From Gammaproteobacteria bacterium (GTDB lineage: Bacteria; Pseudomonadota; Gammaproteobacteria; Nitrosococcales; Methylophagaceae): a stretch of DNA of 64,000 nt. The stretch spans positions 186,001 to 250,000 of the forward strand of contig JAQWIT010000013.1 in NCBI GenBank assembly GCA_029248745.1, written 5' to 3'. Made by a program: the position numbers and the translations under genes. Numbering within the stretch: the first letter of the stretch is position 1; the number at the start of each line of letters is the position of its first letter. The notes under the pieces were generated by a model. It did no database searches, had not been told where the DNA came from, and was given only the letters and a program-made list of their open reading frames with translations. Shown piece by piece: positions 6,907-13,562 of this stretch.

Positions 6907-7548
6907 ATGCAATTTAAATCTTTGTGCTTTGTTGTATTGGCTTTGCTTTTTACGGGATGCTCGAGCACTTATTATTCTGCGATGGAAAAAGTCGGGGTAC
7001 ATAAGCGGGATATCATGATTGATCGCATTATGGATGCTGAGACTTCTCAGCAAGCGGCACAGTAACAGTCTAAGCCAGAACTGGAAGAGTTAACATTCTT
7101 GATACATTTTGATGGTGGTGAGTTAGAGCAAAAATATCAAGCTGTCGAGGCACAGTATGAAGCCAGCCATGCTGCTGCAGATGATGTGAGTAAGCGGATT
7201 GATAAAATTGAAAATGTGGCTGAGGCTTTGTTTGAGGAATGGCAATCATAAATAGAATTGATCTCAAACTCTAATTACCGTCGTCAAAGTAGGGCTAAAT
7301 TGCAAGAGACGAAAATGCGATATAGCATTTTGATTAATTCAATGCATAAAGCTGAAGAGAAAATGGCACTGATTTTGACAGCGTTGCAAGATAATACTCT
7401 GTTTTTAAAGCATAACTTGAATGCTAAGGCTATTGACGCATTTCAAGGTGAAATGCAGGCAATTGAGCGAGATATTGATGTGTTGATTAGATATATAAAT
7501 GCCGCTATTACTCAGTCACAACAATTTATCGATTTGTCACAAAATTAA
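6907..7548 (+). pseudogene. DUF2959 lipoprotein gene with two in-frame stop codons
   Basis: A single frame from the ATG at 6907 to the TAA at 7546 encodes about 213 residues of a DUF2959 protein, the normal family length. It opens with a lipoprotein signal (LCFVVLALLFTGCSST), then STYYSAMEKVGVHKRDIM and IHFDGGELEQKYQAVEAQYE, and continues with NYRRQSRAKLQETKMRY and FLKHNLNAKAIDAFQGEM. Two TAA codons, at 7063-7065 (after AAQ) and 7249-7251 (after EEWQS), interrupt it. Relatives usually have Glu at these places, so one base change each would explain them. There is no frameshift. The last third (7258-7548) could start at a TTG but would lack the signal peptide. Confidence 0.85.
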
Positions 7549-7551
7549 AGC

Positions 7552-8030
7552 TTAATTGTCATCATTTGAGGCTATCGGTTCATTGCTGATAGTGTCACCA
7601 ACAGGGGTGGCGAAGGCATCTGAAATAAGCCCGGTGATATTGTCTCCGTTGAGCGTCTTGAGAAAGGCAACCAAATCATCACTTTCTTTTTCAGTCAGGC
7701 CTAAGGGCTTGATGATCGGGGATTGGGTTACATTGGGGAAGCCGTTTTCATTGTGGCTGATACCGCCTTGGTTATAAAAAGCGATGACTTCTTTGAGACT
7801 GTGCACTGTACCGTCGTGCATATAGGGCCCGGTTAAGGCGACATTGCGTAATGACGGAGTGCGGTATTTCCATCTGTCGTCAGGGTTTTGGGTGATTTCG
7901 TACTGACCTACATCCGGCAATGGCGTTAGAGCGACTGTTTTCCGAAAAGCTTGGGAGATTTTCATATATAAACCGGGTGCGACCAGCGTGGTTTCTTGTT
8001 CTGGGAAAGCGACGGTCATTGGTATTGGCG
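7552..8030 (-). pseudogene. C-terminal fragment of a di-haem cytochrome c peroxidase/MauG-type protein
   Basis: The minus strand encodes DDRWKYRTPSLRNVALTGPY followed by MHDGTVHSLKEVIAFYNQGG and a final LTEKESDDLVAFLKTLNG. This is the C-terminal haem domain region of bacterial di-haem peroxidases, including the distal Met of the MHDG motif. Both CXXCH haem-binding motifs and the signal peptide are missing, so it cannot be functional. At about 8030 the reading runs directly into the remains of ogt, which shows a deletion fused two dead genes. The possible GTG start at 8037 is not credible. Confidence 0.8.
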
Positions 8031-8390
8031 ACGGCACGTACGGCTATAGGTTTACCAAATTTTTGGCAAGTTCTAAATAGCTGACTGTTTGTCCATAGGG
8101 AATATTTTGTAATGCCTGCCAGATTTGCTTTTGGAAGTCTGTGCCGGCAAGGATGAGTGATAACTCAAATTCAGTTCTTTGTTTATTGAAGTATTCATCA
8201 AGCTGTTTTATGGCATGATTTAAAGTGGCATTGCGGCCTTCGTTCAATGGCCCACCTGAGTGTTTGGTCAGTCTTTTTTTCCGACAGCGACTTTATTCTT
8301 CTTGTTTTGCTAATTACATAAACACAATTTGCCTTCGATACTACCGAGGACAAGATTACCGACGGGTGATTGATAAAGTTGAGTTGTAAT
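8031..8390 (-). pseudogene. ogt: Broken ogt: O6-methylguanine-DNA methyltransferase
   Basis: On the minus strand, three frame-shifted pieces make up an Ogt N-terminus and middle. They are LYQSPVGNLVLGSIEGKLC (about 8310-8390), ATLNHAIKQLDEYFNKQRTE with FQKQIWQALQNIPYGQTVSY (8062-8240), and after a one-base loss in an A-run, FGKPIAVRAVANTND (near 8025-8070). The following PCHRV active-site motif is deleted and replaced by a peroxidase fragment. A stop (TAG) also follows the first piece near 8310. The start codon is not clear. The gene is dead by frameshift, stop and C-terminal deletion. Confidence 0.8.
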
Positions 8391-8478
8391 TTGTGTAATA
8401 GTATTACAGTACCATTTAACGATTGTTTTGATTAGCAGTGACTCATATAATGACGTTTTGTTTATAGATGAGTCGACG

Positions 8479-8901
8479 ATGGAAATCACAGCTGTGCCTT
8501 TTGCCGCCCATAATGGCATTGAAATTGACGAAAATGGTGCTGTGTTTTTGCCTTTTCACGAAAGTGTACAGAACCATTTTGATGGTGTGCATGCCGGTGC
8601 TCAGTTTTTGTTGGCGGAAAGTGCGAGTGGTTATTATTTGTTAACGGCTTTCCCTGATTTAGTTGGTCATGTTGTGCCTTTACTGCGTGAATCACGCATT
8701 AAATATGTTCAGCAAGCTCAGGGCGAATTGGTATCAAAAGTGTTACTGGAGGAGGCAGAAAAGCAAAAAATTTTGCAGACACTGATGTCACGCAGACGTG
8801 CTGTGGTTACTGTCGCTGTCGATGTGAGTGAACGTGATGGTAATACGACGTGCTCTGGTGAGTTTAAGTGGTTTGTTCAGCTGCAGGGTGATATTGCTTA
8901 G
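8479..8901 (+). CDS. Thioesterase-like (hot-dog fold, DUF4442/PaaI type) protein
   Basis: A 140-residue protein starting at MEITAVPFAAHNGIEIDENG. The segment LPFHESVQNHFDGVHAGAQF resembles the hot-dog fold of DUF4442/PaaI-like thioesterases, where the HAGA helix packs over the sheet. The start is chosen at the ATG at 8479. An upstream TTG at 8428 would add 17 residues with no family support and overlap the decayed ogt region. Its stop overlaps the stop of the convergent gene at 8898 by 4 bases, within an inverted repeat (GATATT/AATATC). Substrate unknown; a role in acyl-CoA metabolism is inference from fold. Confidence 0.6.
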   Translation: MEITAVPFAAHNGIEIDENGAVFLPFHESVQNHFDGVHAGAQFLLAESASGYYLLTAFPDLVGHVVPLLRESRIKYVQQAQGELVSKVLLEEAEKQKILQTLMSRRRAVVTVAVDVSERDGNTTCSGEFKWFVQLQGDIA

Positions 8902-9317
8902 ATAATATCGAACATAACTTGATGTCCAGCCTTGAAGTGCTTTCCAGCATAGTCTGACAGCCAACTCAGGTCGAGGGTCTTGCTCTTAATTGCTTTTGAT
9001 TTTGCGTAGTAATAGGCAAGCATAAATGTCTCATCTTCTGTTCGTAACCATTTTTCTGTTTTTGTTTGGACAGAGACAGATTCACGACGAAATAATTCTT
9101 CAAACACGGCATCAACGATAAGGTTAAAGTGACTCTCGTTAATTTTGTTCGCGATGGCATAGCCACGACAAGAACCTAAGACTGAACCAGTGATTTCATG
9201 GCTCGATTGCATTTTTACAGGAACATTGCCCAGTTCATCTTTCAGCGCGTTAAAGCAATTAGAGAAGGCTTTGAGTAGATGATGTTTGTGTTGATTGTTT
9301 TTAAATAATTTGAGCAT
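8898..9317 (-). CDS. Unknown protein, tandem paralogue 4 of 4
   Basis: A 139-residue soluble, probably all-helical protein of a family I do not recognise. It shares a core with its three upstream neighbours: FxxCFxxLxxELGNVPxxMQ, then a GSCRGYAxxN helix, VDAVFEELFRRES, VQxKxExWL, FMxAYxxAK, and a final LDLSWLSDYAxxHF. No signal peptide, membrane segment or metal motif is visible. It begins 6 bases after the preceding paralogue ends and is last in the operon. It differs most at the C-terminus (GHQVMFDII). Confidence 0.65.
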   Translation of the reverse strand: MLKLFKNNQHKHHLLKAFSNCFNALKDELGNVPVKMQSSHEITGSVLGSCRGYAIANKINESHFNLIVDAVFEELFRRESVSVQTKTEKWLRTEDETFMLAYYYAKSKAIKSKTLDLSWLSDYAGKHFKAGHQVMFDII

Positions 9318-9323
9318 GGTTTC

Positions 9324-9725
9324 TTATGTTGTATGTCTTACCTCAAAAGCTGCATCAAAATGTGCCTTTGCATAAGTTTGTAACCAAGTTAAGTCTAGCT
9401 CTAACGAGACTTTATCTTTGGCGTGGTAATATGATTCCATAAAATCCTCATCGGCTTCCGTTAACCATGTCTCAGTTCTGGTTTGAACATCAATAGAATC
9501 TTGTCGGTAGACTTCTTCAAACACGGCATCAACGATAGAAGCGAATGCTTTTTCAGATAAATTAGCAGCTTCCGAGTACCCTCGGCATGTCCCTAAAATA
9601 GCGGCTGTGACATATTTGTCTTTTTGCATAGGGATAGGAACATTATCGAAGATACTTTTGAGTGGCTCGAAGCAGTCAGAGAATGCGTGCTTGAGTTTGC
9701 TTTTATGTTTCATCATTTCTAACAT
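9324..9725 (-). CDS. Unknown protein, tandem paralogue 3 of 4
   Basis: A 133-residue member of the tandem array. It contains FSDCFEPLKSIFDNVPIPMQ, AAILGTCRGYSEAAN, SIVDAVFEEVYRQDSIDVQ, WLTEADEDFMESYYHAKDK and LDLTWLQTYAKAHFDAAF. GGGGAG lies 6-7 bases before the ATG at 9725, a good ribosome binding site. The gene before it ends 20 bases upstream. Function unknown; the conserved acidic/aromatic pattern in the second half suggests a shared helical bundle. Confidence 0.65.
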   Translation of the reverse strand: MLEMMKHKSKLKHAFSDCFEPLKSIFDNVPIPMQKDKYVTAAILGTCRGYSEAANLSEKAFASIVDAVFEEVYRQDSIDVQTRTETWLTEADEDFMESYYHAKDKVSLELDLTWLQTYAKAHFDAAFEVRHTT

Positions 9726-9745
9726 GATGCTCCCCTTTTGTTAAA

Positions 9746-10147
9746 TTAAAGTTGTTGACCTAGTGTACTGGCTTTTTCAAAATGCGTTTGTACATATTGA
9801 CTTAACCAGTCTAAGTTTAGCTCAACTTCCGCGGCCGTTCTTGCATGTTGATAAGCAGTCATAAAATCACTATTTTCTTTATTGAGCCAATTTTGTGCTT
9901 TGATTTGCATAGCCAATGATTCACTGCGAAATACTTCTTCAAAAGCATTGTCTATGAGTTTATTGACGACGGCTTCTTTTAGTTTATTTTTAACGGCGTA
10001 ACCACGGCATGTGCCAAGGATGGCGCCAGATATATAGGGACTCTGTCTCATACTAGAGTGGACATTGCCTAAATCACTTCTCAATGGGTCTAAACAATCT
10101 GAGAAGGCTTGTAATAGTATGGGTTTATGTATGGCGGCAGTGAACAT
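9746..10147 (-). CDS. Unknown protein, tandem paralogue 2 of 4
   Basis: A 133-residue paralogue starting at MFTAAIHKPILLQAFSDCLD. An ATG or similar codon 18 codons upstream would run into the preceding gene and adds no conserved sequence, so 10147 is preferred. Shared core: LDPLRSDLGNVHSSMRQSPY, GAILGTCRGYAVKN, FEEVFRSESLAMQ, WLNKENSDFMTAYQHAR and LNLDWLSQYVQTHFEKAS. It keeps the VDxxFEE-like helix as IDNAFEE. It sits 10 bases after paralogue 1. Function unknown. Confidence 0.65.
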   Translation of the reverse strand: MFTAAIHKPILLQAFSDCLDPLRSDLGNVHSSMRQSPYISGAILGTCRGYAVKNKLKEAVVNKLIDNAFEEVFRSESLAMQIKAQNWLNKENSDFMTAYQHARTAAEVELNLDWLSQYVQTHFEKASTLGQQL

Positions 10148-10157
10148 TTTTTTCGTT

Positions 10158-10562
10158 TTATAACATGAGGCCTGTTGCTTGATCGAAATTCTCTTTAGCA
10201 TAGGTAGTCAACCAAGCTAAATCCAGATCTGCTGTTGTTTTATCCTTAGCAACTTCATAAGCCTGAGTAAAGTCATCATTGCTGCTATTTTTCCATGTAT
10301 CAACACGTTCTTGGACGTTAACTGATTCCATACGATAGACTTCTTCAAAGGCGGCATCAGATATCAATGCAATATCATTTGGTTTAGTGACATTTTGCAG
10401 TTCAGCATATTTTTCACAGACAGCTAGAATTGAGGCATTGATAGCCGGGTCAGTTTGCATAGGAATGGGCACATTACCCAATTCATCTATCAAGGGCCAA
10501 AAGCATTTTTCGAATGCCTGTTCTAGTTTCCTTTTATGTTTACCAAGACCGATGCCAAACAT
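10158..10562 (-). CDS. Unknown protein, tandem paralogue 1 of 4 (first gene of the array)
   Basis: A 134-residue protein, first in transcription order. It is the most divergent copy: the CRGYA motif is CEKYAELQN, but FEKCFWPLIDELGNVPIPMQ, AAFEEVYRMESVNVQ, FTQAYEVAKDK and LDLAWLTTYAKENFDQAT are kept. GAGGA precedes the ATG at 10562. A weak -10-like TATATT lies about 40 bases upstream. I cannot assign a family. The short N-terminal basic stretch (GLGKHKRKLEQAF) is common to the array. Confidence 0.65.
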   Translation of the reverse strand: MFGIGLGKHKRKLEQAFEKCFWPLIDELGNVPIPMQTDPAINASILAVCEKYAELQNVTKPNDIALISDAAFEEVYRMESVNVQERVDTWKNSSNDDFTQAYEVAKDKTTADLDLAWLTTYAKENFDQATGLML

Positions 10563-10660: not shown

Positions 10661-11077
10661 TTAGGCGTCGATTCTTTTATGTCGTAATGACTTAATTTTA
10701 CTCCGATGTTGTTTATTTACGAGTCGCTTTTTGAGGGCATTTTTGCTGGGTTTAGTAACTCGTCTTATTTTTCTTTGTTCGAGCTGTTCGAGAATAAGTT
10801 GTTGTAGACGGTTGAGCGCATCTTGACGATTTTTTTCTTGGGTCCGCCATTGTTGCGCTTTGATGATAATGCAACCATGTTTAGTAATTCGGTTATCTGG
10901 AGATGACAGTAATCGTTGTTTGATAGCATCGGGGAGTGAAGCTTTCTTTATATCAAAGCGAAGGTGGATGGCGGTGGCGACTTTATTGACATTCTGTCCC
11001 CCAGCCCCTTGTGCACGAATAGCTGTTAAGACAATTTCGTGATCGGGTATTGAGAGATGTTGGTTGATGTTTAGCAC
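10661..11077 (-). CDS. arfB: Alternative ribosome-rescue factor ArfB (YaeJ)
   Basis: A peptidyl-tRNA hydrolase of the release-factor-like family that frees ribosomes stalled without a stop codon. The catalytic GGQ motif is in IRAQGAGGQNVNKVATAIHL, and the C-terminal tail is strongly basic (KNALKKRLVNKQHRSKIKSL), as needed to enter the empty mRNA channel. With the GTG at 11077 the protein has 138 residues, matching the roughly 140 of E. coli YaeJ, and an AGGAA lies 7 bases before it. The ATG at 11107 lacks a ribosome binding site and sits almost on a TATAAT sequence. Confidence 0.88.
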   Translation of the reverse strand: MLNINQHLSIPDHEIVLTAIRAQGAGGQNVNKVATAIHLRFDIKKASLPDAIKQRLLSSPDNRITKHGCIIIKAQQWRTQEKNRQDALNRLQQLILEQLEQRKIRRVTKPSKNALKKRLVNKQHRSKIKSLRHKRIDA

Positions 11078-11230
11078 GTGCAATTCCTGTGGTGATGCTA
11101 GCGACATGGATTATATTACGGGTTTGCTTGTCAAAGGAGTCTACGTGGTTGTGCTTATTCTCCGTCAGACGTGAGATTTTATTGATTCTATAATAGAGCC
11201 AAGCTACTTTTGAAAATGCTAGGAATTTGA

Positions 11231-13508
11231 ATGGGATAGGTTATTAAAGTTGTTGCTAGTCTTATGAGTGTTATATTTATCGATGCTTTTTATGCGTTGT
11301 TAAATATTGACCTTAATGATTATAAATAACAGATTGAGGATGCAACTACGGATGCGACAGGTCGGCAATTGCGGCTGGAAGGCGATGTCTCGATTGCTTG
11401 GTCGTTGATTCCAACCTTAGCTGTTGAGAAAGTCACCTTTTCAAATGCCAGCTAGGGGATAGAGCCAGAGATGGTGGCGTTAGATAAGTTTGAAGTGCGA
11501 TTGGCTTTGTACCCTTTACTACAACGCCACATACAAGTGTCAAAAGTATTATTGCATAGCTCACATATCCTGGTTGAGACGAACAAAAAAAGGGGTTAGC
11601 AATTGGGTGTTTGACATTGAAGCGACACCAGAGCCTGAAGAAACTAGGCAGAATGAGAATGAAGCATCAGAGCTCCAATCTGTTATTGTCAATGAGCTGG
11701 ATACTACAGAAACGAAAATCGACTATATCGATGGCGTGACTGGTGACAAAAAGCAGTTTTAATTGAACATTTGTCAATTGATGTTGCTGATACAGAAACT
11801 CCAATGGATCTAGTGTTGAAAGCGGTAGTCGATGAGATTCCTGTTTCAGTTGAGGGTGAAATGGGTGGCGTTAAATCTCTAATCGATAATACGAATATGT
11901 CGTTAGATTTAACAGCTGATGCGGGGGTATTCCCCTTGAACTTGATGGTGAAATTGCTCAACTATAGATGGCAAGGGTGCTGTGCTAAAGCTGGAACTTA
12001 ATTCCGCGGGTGCTGCGTTATCCAAGTTGTCTAGTGAGACGTTACCCGCTTTTGGTAATGTCACGATTAAGGGCGATGTTAAGAGTGATGATGTGACCGA
12101 TAAGATCACATTAGACTTGTTGATAGCTATAGATGGTGTTGGTCTAGCGCTCAAAGGGCAGATTACTGAGCCACAGCAAGTTAAAGGAGTAGCACTCAAT
12201 ATTGATCTAACAACAGATTTCTCAACGTTGTCATTGTTATCTGGCTCTGAGATACCAAATATTGGTGATGTCGAATTAAAAGGGCAGATATCTAATCATC
12301 TCGAGGCGGAAGCGATAATGTCAACGGTGAAAGGGGATGTTCAGCGTCCCCAAGAAGCTGATGGTATTACACTTGATTTGTATTTGGTAACGCACTCTTT
12401 TGCTCTGAGTGTCTTAGCTGGGGATACATTACCAACGATAAGTGATATTAAGTTGTCCAGCGCAGTGACAGGTAATGACAATGTTTATAAGTTAGCGAAT
12501 TTGGCGTTAACTGCAGATAAAACGGACTTGAGTGGCGATGTCGTTGTGTCACTCGTAGGCGAAAATCCTAAAATCACTGCGGCATTGGTTTCGCAAACTT
12601 TTGATCTTACGTCGTTATTAAGAAGATGAGTCCACATCAGAATCTGAGAACGACTATTCTCGGATGACACATTGGTCTTTGATGCATTAAACGAACTTGA
12701 TGCTGATATCACGCTCAAGATACAAACTGTCGATTCAAATGCGTTAAAGCTAAGGAACGTTGATATTGCAGTTGTTTTACAAAATAGTCATTTACAAATT
12801 TCCCCTATGGTTCTGAGTTTCGCTGGCAGCCGATTGACAGGTCATGTTGATTTGAATGCGAAGAGTGAAACGGCAGCGTTGAGTACAAAGATGCAGGTGA
12901 ATGGGTTTAAGTTAGCGAAAGTAGACGCTTTAAAAGATGTTATTTCAGGCGGTAATACGGACGTTTATATCGATGCTAAAGGCAAAGGTAAAACGGTAAG
13001 ACAATTAATGGCAGGATTAGATAGTAAAGTCATCATAAAAATAGCTGAGAGTCAGATCGAAGACGGTACATTAGATTTGATAGGCGCTGACTTTATTACG
13101 GAATTGGTTAATCTTTTAAACCCTTTCAGTAAGGGGCAAAAAGGGACTGAGCTTGCTTGTGCTGTTGTGAATTTTAATATTAAAAATGGCATTGCGACAA
13201 CGGATAAAGGTATTGCTGTGAGAAAGGGCAAAATGATTATCTTTGGTGATGGAACGATTAATCTAAAAAATGAGAAGTCGGATATTGGTACTACACCTGA
13301 GGCACGGACAGGAATTGGGATGAACATGACCAATCTAGTTGGCTTAGTGCGTGTAGGTGGCACCTTAGCAGCTCCATCAGCCCTAGTGGATAATACGGGT
13401 GTTTTGGAAGCAGGATTGTCAACGGGAGCAGCTGTTGCAACAGGTGGCTTGTTAGTCGTTGCTGAGGTTTTAATCGATAGGGTGACTGCTGATGAGAACC
13501 CTTGTTAG
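11231..13508 (+). pseudogene. Heavily decayed AsmA-family gene
   Basis: Reading across frames reconstructs an AsmA-like protein: IDAFYALLNIDLNDYK, ATGRQLRLEGDVSIAWSLIP, LAVEKVTFSNAS, ALDKFEVRLALYPLLQ, and a long beta-repeat C-terminus. I count at least nine lesions. Stops are TAG at codon 3 (11237), TAA at 11327 and TAG at 11453 (a Trp position). Frameshifts lie near 11584 (extra A in a run), 11750, 11925, 11965, 12620 and 12660. The last piece (12672-13508) is a long open stretch but lacks start and signal. AsmA proteins act in envelope lipid transport and outer-membrane assembly. Confidence 0.88.
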
Positions 13509-13562
13509 ACCGTATTTGGCATTAAACCGAAAACACCATGATATTTGTCGAGTAAGGTGCTT

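Follow-up and report, generated by a model that had tools for sequence, protein, structure and literature searches.

Among six Methylophaga species, only M. thiooxydans and M. sulfidovorans carry mtoX, the gene for methanethiol oxidase (PMC6548844; here and below, literature statements rest on excerpts of the papers cited). Dimethylsulfide (DMS) strongly raises a group of transcripts that includes mtoX and MDMS009_226, a "fatty acid desaturase" gene whose product has been attributed to the upkeep of membrane lipids (PMC6548844). The present work concerns a tandem array of four small paralogous genes (c1–c4) in a 64,000-nucleotide stretch of DNA, hereafter the window, from a gammaproteobacterium of the family Methylophagaceae (assembly GCA_029248745.1, contig JAQWIT010000013.1, positions 186,001 to 250,000 of the forward strand). 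The array represents a real, conserved and unnamed protein family, and its company is more interesting than its tandem form: within one order, linkage and co-occurrence give good support to its connection with methylated-sulfur oxidation.

The published mto-cluster 1 comprises genes for methanethiol oxidase, SCO1-MauG, SCO1, persulfide dioxygenase, SqrB, SulP, APS kinase and a methylated-DNA methyltransferase (PMC6548844). The first DMS-degrading enzyme was not found in that study, which left a hydrolase or a monooxygenase possible, and a dmoA homologue was absent from the six Methylophaga genomes studied (PMC6548844). In 2022 the gene for the first DMS step was still called unidentified, and a methyltransferase was spoken of (PMC9563715). 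DmoA has been named for the conversion of DMS to methanethiol, in a text whose excerpt does not mention Methylophaga (PMC13360808). Bloom metaproteomes of methylotrophs, Methylophagaceae among them, contain methanethiol oxidase and glutathione S-transferases (PMC8371827). Our search of a literature library found no paper on an alkane-type or new DMS monooxygenase, and a search combining Methylophaga with desaturase found PMC6548844 alone.

Neighbours and co-occurring genes of the array

In M. thiooxydans (NZ_GG657883.1), the array consists of two genes, termed B and A. The gene order begins with a protein that we refer to as D5 and, further along, runs: TodX-type channel, small protein, reductase, glutathione S-transferase (GST)-like protein, globin, hydroxylase, vWA protein, CbbQ-type protein, array B and A. 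Past the array it continues with LysR, 6-phosphogluconate dehydrogenase, mtoX and SCO1/MauG; array and mtoX are 3.5 kb apart on the same scaffold. By type, the stretch encodes a truncated globin and a second globin, a GST-like protein, a 2Fe-2S/FAD reductase, a FadL/TodX-type channel, a nitronate-monooxygenase-like protein, D5, an acyl-CoA-dehydrogenase-like protein and a two-component pair. In both M. thiooxydans and G002, a relative in the window's genus, the array adjoins the paired genes for the CbbQ-type AAA+ protein and the vWA protein, and the hydroxylase gene comes next; in M. sulfidovorans (NZ_FOSH01000001.1), one gene lies between the array and the CbbQ/vWA–hydroxylase set.

The hydroxylase matches PF00487 with an expectation value (E) of 8.5e-25 and two AlkB structures with E of 4e-28 and 1e-25; by domain and homology, it qualifies as a predicted AlkB/XylM-type enzyme. 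The AAA+ protein beside the M. thiooxydans array clearly matches CbbQ/NorQ structures, and its partner has a vWA domain. The N-terminal half of D5 is very conserved and the C-terminal half weakly methyltransferase-like, in the members for which coordinates are shown.

The M. thiooxydans hydroxylase is very probably MDMS009_226, for three reasons: (i) past mtoX on the array scaffold, the open reading frames (ORFs) run as described for mto-cluster 1 (BLAST or Pfam identified the genes on the mtoX side and MauG, and the rest were assigned by eye), (ii) the mtoX ORF is 467 amino acids long, as expected for MDMS009_211 plus 40 residues, and (iii) this is the only hydroxylase ORF (of at least 120 amino acids) detected on the scaffold by BLAST together with a three-hydroxylase profile. 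A loose scan for histidine boxes picked out six other ORFs, none of them a desaturase by Pfam (one MauG, three of other families, two with no family).

Co-occurrence was surveyed in 63 genomes of the window's order, with cut-offs of E ≤1e-20 for the hydroxylase and for mtoX, and E ≤1e-8 for D5. The hydroxylase is found in 11 of 12 array genomes versus 0 of 51 others, mtoX in 11 of 12 versus 1 of 51, and D5 in 10 of 12 versus 0 of 51 (Fisher p values of 2e-11, 2e-10 and 5e-10, respectively, which treat genomes as independent when they are not). Many of the hydroxylase matches in this survey are cut by contig ends. The two mtoX-bearing Methylophaga species are also the two genomes of genus g3 that carry array, hydroxylase, D5 and mtoX.

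The family is found in 10 of 59 genomes (the window's and 58 relatives), all of them within the window's genus (29 genomes) and with two to four copies each. The order-wide count is 12 of 63, the extra two being M. sulfidovorans and M. thiooxydans (2 of the 24 g3 genomes). At the level of the class, the family occurs in 5 of 369 genomes and D5 in 10, including all five array genomes. A second taxonomic family, f45, has single-copy relatives in 7 of 19 genomes of its order; D5 is present in 14 of the 19, broken in one of the 14 (G412), and accompanies the array family in 7 of 7. In a third, f165, single-copy relatives occur in 6 of 20 genomes of that order—every f165 genome listed—and the family gene directly adjoins D5, with a gap of 11–12 bases, at all five loci read (six are known). 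Among the array genomes chosen for the first test of D5, 11 of 11 carry it.

Two side observations belong with this survey. In G224 (f45), the family gene is interrupted by a stop; this stop-cut copy (L058, 9029–10448) adjoins an apparent insertion element, recognized by eye, beside a broken sugar-phosphatase gene. D5 homologues are also seen in small genomes (~1.0–1.1 Mb) of two other taxonomic families (L147–L151), with no array-family match and with neighbours that differ between those families.

In the window's own genome, contig C12 holds the reductase, channel, globin and D5 at ~10 kb from mtoX (C12:16171–17526). The genes between D5 and mtoX (L121 5171–13942, on C12) look by eye like a sox cluster. 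Copies or fragments of the hydroxylase gene lie at contig ends (L119 on C14, L120 on C17, L123 on C13, and C1:1–369), as if repeated hydroxylase genes had broken the assembly.

An unnamed family with an old tandem duplication

All four genes lie on the minus strand, and c1 is the first to be transcribed. It encodes 134 amino acids (10158–10562) and is of A type, with the motif C-E-x-Y and an LML ending as in single-copy f45 relatives. The other three are of CRGY type: c2 (133 amino acids; 9746–10147, with the ATG at 10147 taken as the start, the reading frame in the ORF listing reaching 10201 and so overlapping c1), c3 (133 amino acids; 9324–9725) and c4 (139 amino acids; 8898–9317), which is absent or decayed in part of the relatives. 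Along c1-c2-c3-c4, the intergenic gaps are 10, 20 and 6 bases. With c3 as the query, exactly the four array genes were found in the 1.73-Mb, 20-contig genome of the window (E 3e-88 to 8e-32); the paralogues share 39–50% pairwise identity, and orthologues with open frames are present in other species. The array is therefore far beyond chance.

None of the four copies reached a curated cut-off in Pfam-A or NCBIfam. Across 39 members, Pfam gave weak matches only (best E 5e-4), to a family that varies by member; these matches (ATLF, Sf6 terminase, APOC4, Tai4, LRR_5, DUF7275 and others) were judged to be chance. A globin match (Hemoglobin III, E 0.19, with a 4-row profile) was gone with a 16-row profile at E up to 5, and sequence searches of the family against solved structures yielded chance matches only. 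The AlphaFold2 model of c3, built from a 39-row alignment, is all-helical (predicted local distance difference test score, pLDDT, 92.3; predicted template modelling score, pTM, 0.87). With this model, Foldseek found nothing significant in the PDB (best E 3.5) or among the viral structures of BFVD (best E 2.9), and VIA-align scored highest for a designed helical repeat, with a Z of 5.5 that is in the range of common helical arrangements. The predicted fold has no clear solved relative in these PDB and BFVD searches, a result which does not in itself make the fold novel. The proteins are presumably cytoplasmic, since no signal sequence was seen. The original prediction, of four intact same-strand tandem paralogues from an unrecognised, helical family, is borne out by these coordinates, searches and model.

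A maximum-likelihood, midpoint-rooted tree of 49 proteins was used to trace the copies (long branches: L041_c4, L042_A, L105 and L014_A; the window's c2 was entered as 9746–10144, one codon short, and the shortened G224 copy was excluded). Each of c2, c3 and c4 forms one clade across species, and c1 one clade within the window's genus; the early impression that the copies diverged long ago thus stands. Together, c2, c3, c4 and the B type make up one 26-row clade (support 99/97), outside of which fall c1, the A type of Methylophaga and G002, and the single-copy relatives.

The same division appears at the CRGYA position. Here, all 26 of the c2, c3, c4 and B proteins read CR[G/A][Y/F], and all 12 of the c1/A proteins C[E/D/K/N]xY. 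Six single-copy proteins (five from f45, plus L045) read C[E/D]xY, the shortened G224 copy reads CGAY, and the cysteine of the CRGYA position is absent from five f165 proteins. Four residues are invariant in 49 of 49 proteins (Cys18, Phe69, Trp114 and Leu115 in c3 numbering). Copy c1 had been said to have lost CRGYA. The motif is indeed absent from c1, but the polarity is reversed: because single-copy relatives also carry the c1-like CExY form, CRGYA most likely arose together with the duplication.

The array copies are under purifying selection, as had been proposed. Ratios of nonsynonymous to synonymous substitution (dN/dS; Nei-Gojobori, between orthologues) could be computed for 17 of 22 comparisons, the other five having saturated dS; 16 of the 17 values are 0.035–0.141, and the remaining one, 0.31, comes from few changes. 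For comparison, computable values are 0.06–0.08 for arfB, 0.09–0.13 for aroE and 0.02–0.13 for hemB, and two values for the neighbouring DUF4442 gene are 0.24–0.25. The expectation that close relatives keep these frames open holds for c1–c3, which have open frames at every one of the nine genus loci read with three or four copies, and fails for c4: in G011, c4 is a ~40-residue remnant with an internal stop (L061 8653–8775), and no c4 match was found in G015, G018 or G022.

Neighbourhoods in the genus were counted over nine loci with three or four array copies. Upstream of the window's array lies an RF-1 domain gene, which we take to be ArfB-like (10661–11107, minus strand); it is the upstream neighbour in seven of the nine loci and is not thought to be part of the proposed system. 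The convergent flank is a DUF4442 gene (8428–8901, plus strand; placed by comparison with the L041 orthologue), the downstream neighbour in five of the nine. At L040 the neighbours differ on both sides; in that genome the array occupies a different location, immediately downstream of a DsrE-like gene (7329–7856).

Several genes near the array are broken in the window, so that the earlier description of a region full of dead genes is accurate there. The AsmA-family gene (~11210–13526) is in pieces in different frames, versus a single frame of ~720–790 amino acids in relatives. Of a MauG-type di-haem peroxidase gene the last third alone remains (7582–8019), and an O6-methylguanine-DNA-methyltransferase gene (8018–8393) is split over three frames; L039 has open frames for both.

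Candidate role and competing explanations

On balance, the array proteins are probably accessory parts of a gene set for methylated-sulfur oxidation. What has been observed in favour of this is the gene linkage in three genomes (M. thiooxydans, M. sulfidovorans and G002), the near-perfect co-occurrence, the pairing with D5 in a distant genus, and purifying selection. Added to these is the published induction by DMS of mtoX and of MDMS009_226, probably the hydroxylase gene. The set would comprise the AlkB/XylM-type hydroxylase with its [2Fe-2S]/FAD reductase, the CbbQ/vWA AAA+ pair, truncated globins, the GST-like protein, the outer-membrane FadL/TodX-type channel, D5 and methanethiol oxidase, and its substrate route would most likely lead from DMS through methanethiol to sulfide. 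Array proteins would act as soluble helpers that bind D5 and/or the hydroxylase or aid in their assembly, perhaps together with CbbQ/vWA, and the copies may be specialised for different partners. This role could take two forms: (i) the array protein could be a subunit of a D5 complex, a form suggested by the operon-like pairing in f165, or (ii) it could connect the CbbQ/vWA chaperone to the hydroxylase as an adaptor, which its position in M. thiooxydans and G002 suggests.

A bolder proposal, tentative and in our view somewhat unlikely, is that the hydroxylase (probably MDMS009_226) is the missing first DMS enzyme in Methylophaga and related marine bacteria, namely a membrane-bound di-iron monooxygenase that converts DMS to methanethiol and formaldehyde. 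The array proteins would then be a new class of small helical subunits for maturation or coupling, duplicated because they have several hydroxylase paralogues to serve. We keep this proposal at lower strength because earlier work, cited in PMC6548844, saw no DMS monooxygenase activity in M. thiooxydans and proposed a methyltransferase.

Besides that earlier work, a number of observations weigh against a role in methylated-sulfur oxidation. M. aminisulfidivorans grows on DMS without mtoX (PMC6548844), and we equate the hydroxylase with MDMS009_226 by inference. Partners are at times missing: G022 has the array without the hydroxylase, G010 has it without mtoX or D5, G016 has it without a D5 match (all three being drafts, 84%, 81% and 67% complete, respectively), and G025 (82% complete) carries mtoX but neither array nor hydroxylase. 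The array is missing from 7 of the 14 f45 genomes that have D5 and from 5 of the 10 such genomes of the class. Apart from G002, the genus loci read have no partner gene within ~8 kb of the array, and in f45 and f165 the family genes sit among mutS, ferredoxin, sugar or glycosyltransferase genes. Finally, co-occurrence counts genomes rather than independent events; the carriers in the genus may be one clade, and the genes one island.

This last point feeds the explanation that, within one clade, an unrelated array has merely been passed on along with these accessory genes. Its carriers may amount to few independent events, and in the genus loci read, G002 excepted, the hydroxylase lies far from the array or on another contig. 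Yet the association holds across different array sites (the arfB locus, the L040 locus and beside CbbQ) and spans two genera, that with D5 spanning three taxonomic families, and we consider simple co-inheritance improbable. Tandem paralogues with a patchy distribution are also seen in mobile and defence systems, and the array could be such a module, acting for instance in immunity or against phages. This we regard as very improbable indeed: no relative was confirmed among 18 candidate viral-contig stretches, no plasmid relative was found with c3 as the query (the search did not extend to the annotated phage collection), 16 members gave no more than isolated weak matches in PADLOC and PHROGs, and the copies are orthologues of long standing, preceded by arfB in most of the genus loci.

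The family might instead be primarily the partner of D5, as its small subunit or chaperone, with the tie to hydroxylase and mtoX in Methylophagaceae being secondary; the DMS methyltransferase predicted by others might even be D5 itself. The presence of D5 alongside the family in three lineages (the window's order, f45 and f165, including every genome of the first test), the close spacing at each f165 locus read, and the two contrasting halves of D5 all point this way. We nevertheless judge a D5-centred role unlikely, as D5 is often found without the family, no D5 match was found in two incomplete array genomes, G010 and G016, and the arrays of M. thiooxydans and G002 adjoin CbbQ/vWA and the hydroxylase rather than D5. 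A further suggestion, made originally from the near-equal size of the four proteins, was that the copies form a hetero-oligomer among themselves. The tandem order is stable, and an A-type gene and at least one CRGY-type gene occur together in every Methylophagaceae locus read; on the other hand, relatives in f45 and f165 make do with a single copy. When the A–B pair of M. thiooxydans was modelled by AlphaFold2 as a contiguous read-through, both halves folded, with a pTM of 0.50 from 15 alignment rows only (eight of 23 rows were dropped, in which single B copies had been placed on the A half). This 15-row model gives no confident prediction of A–B packing, which it neither supports nor excludes, and a hetero-oligomer as the main working state appears doubtful.

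With this candidate role, a small-protein family with no model in the libraries searched gains a first functional context. The array family, D5 and mtoX mark a compact candidate gene set that includes a hydroxylase so far ascribed to membrane-lipid upkeep; the DMS question can thus be tested directly in a marine methylotroph available in culture.

Comparison with described systems

The nearest described system is mto-cluster 1, with which the array shares a scaffold in M. thiooxydans: its orthologues there lie 3.5 kb from mtoX. The two differ in that the array is not listed in the published cluster, as given in the excerpt (PMC6548844). DmoA, the DMS monooxygenase, would carry out the same overall step as the hydroxylase if the latter acts on DMS. 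The two are enzymes of different kinds, DmoA on the one hand and an AlkB/XylM-type hydroxylase on the other. To our knowledge, the array proteins are unlike any known subunit of an alkane or xylene monooxygenase. Resemblance to the AlkB/XylM-type di-iron monooxygenases (PF00487; PDB 8sbb, 8f6t) lies instead in the partner hydroxylase, which matches them, and in the linked reductase and TodX-type channel.

The established contexts of CbbQ and NorQ are Rubisco and nitric oxide reductase. Like the NorQ/NorD and CbbQ/CbbO chaperones (PDB 5c3c, 6l1q, 9qhd), the AAA+ neighbour of the M. thiooxydans array, a relative of CbbQ/NorQ, has a vWA partner; unlike them, this pair accompanies a membrane hydroxylase and the array.

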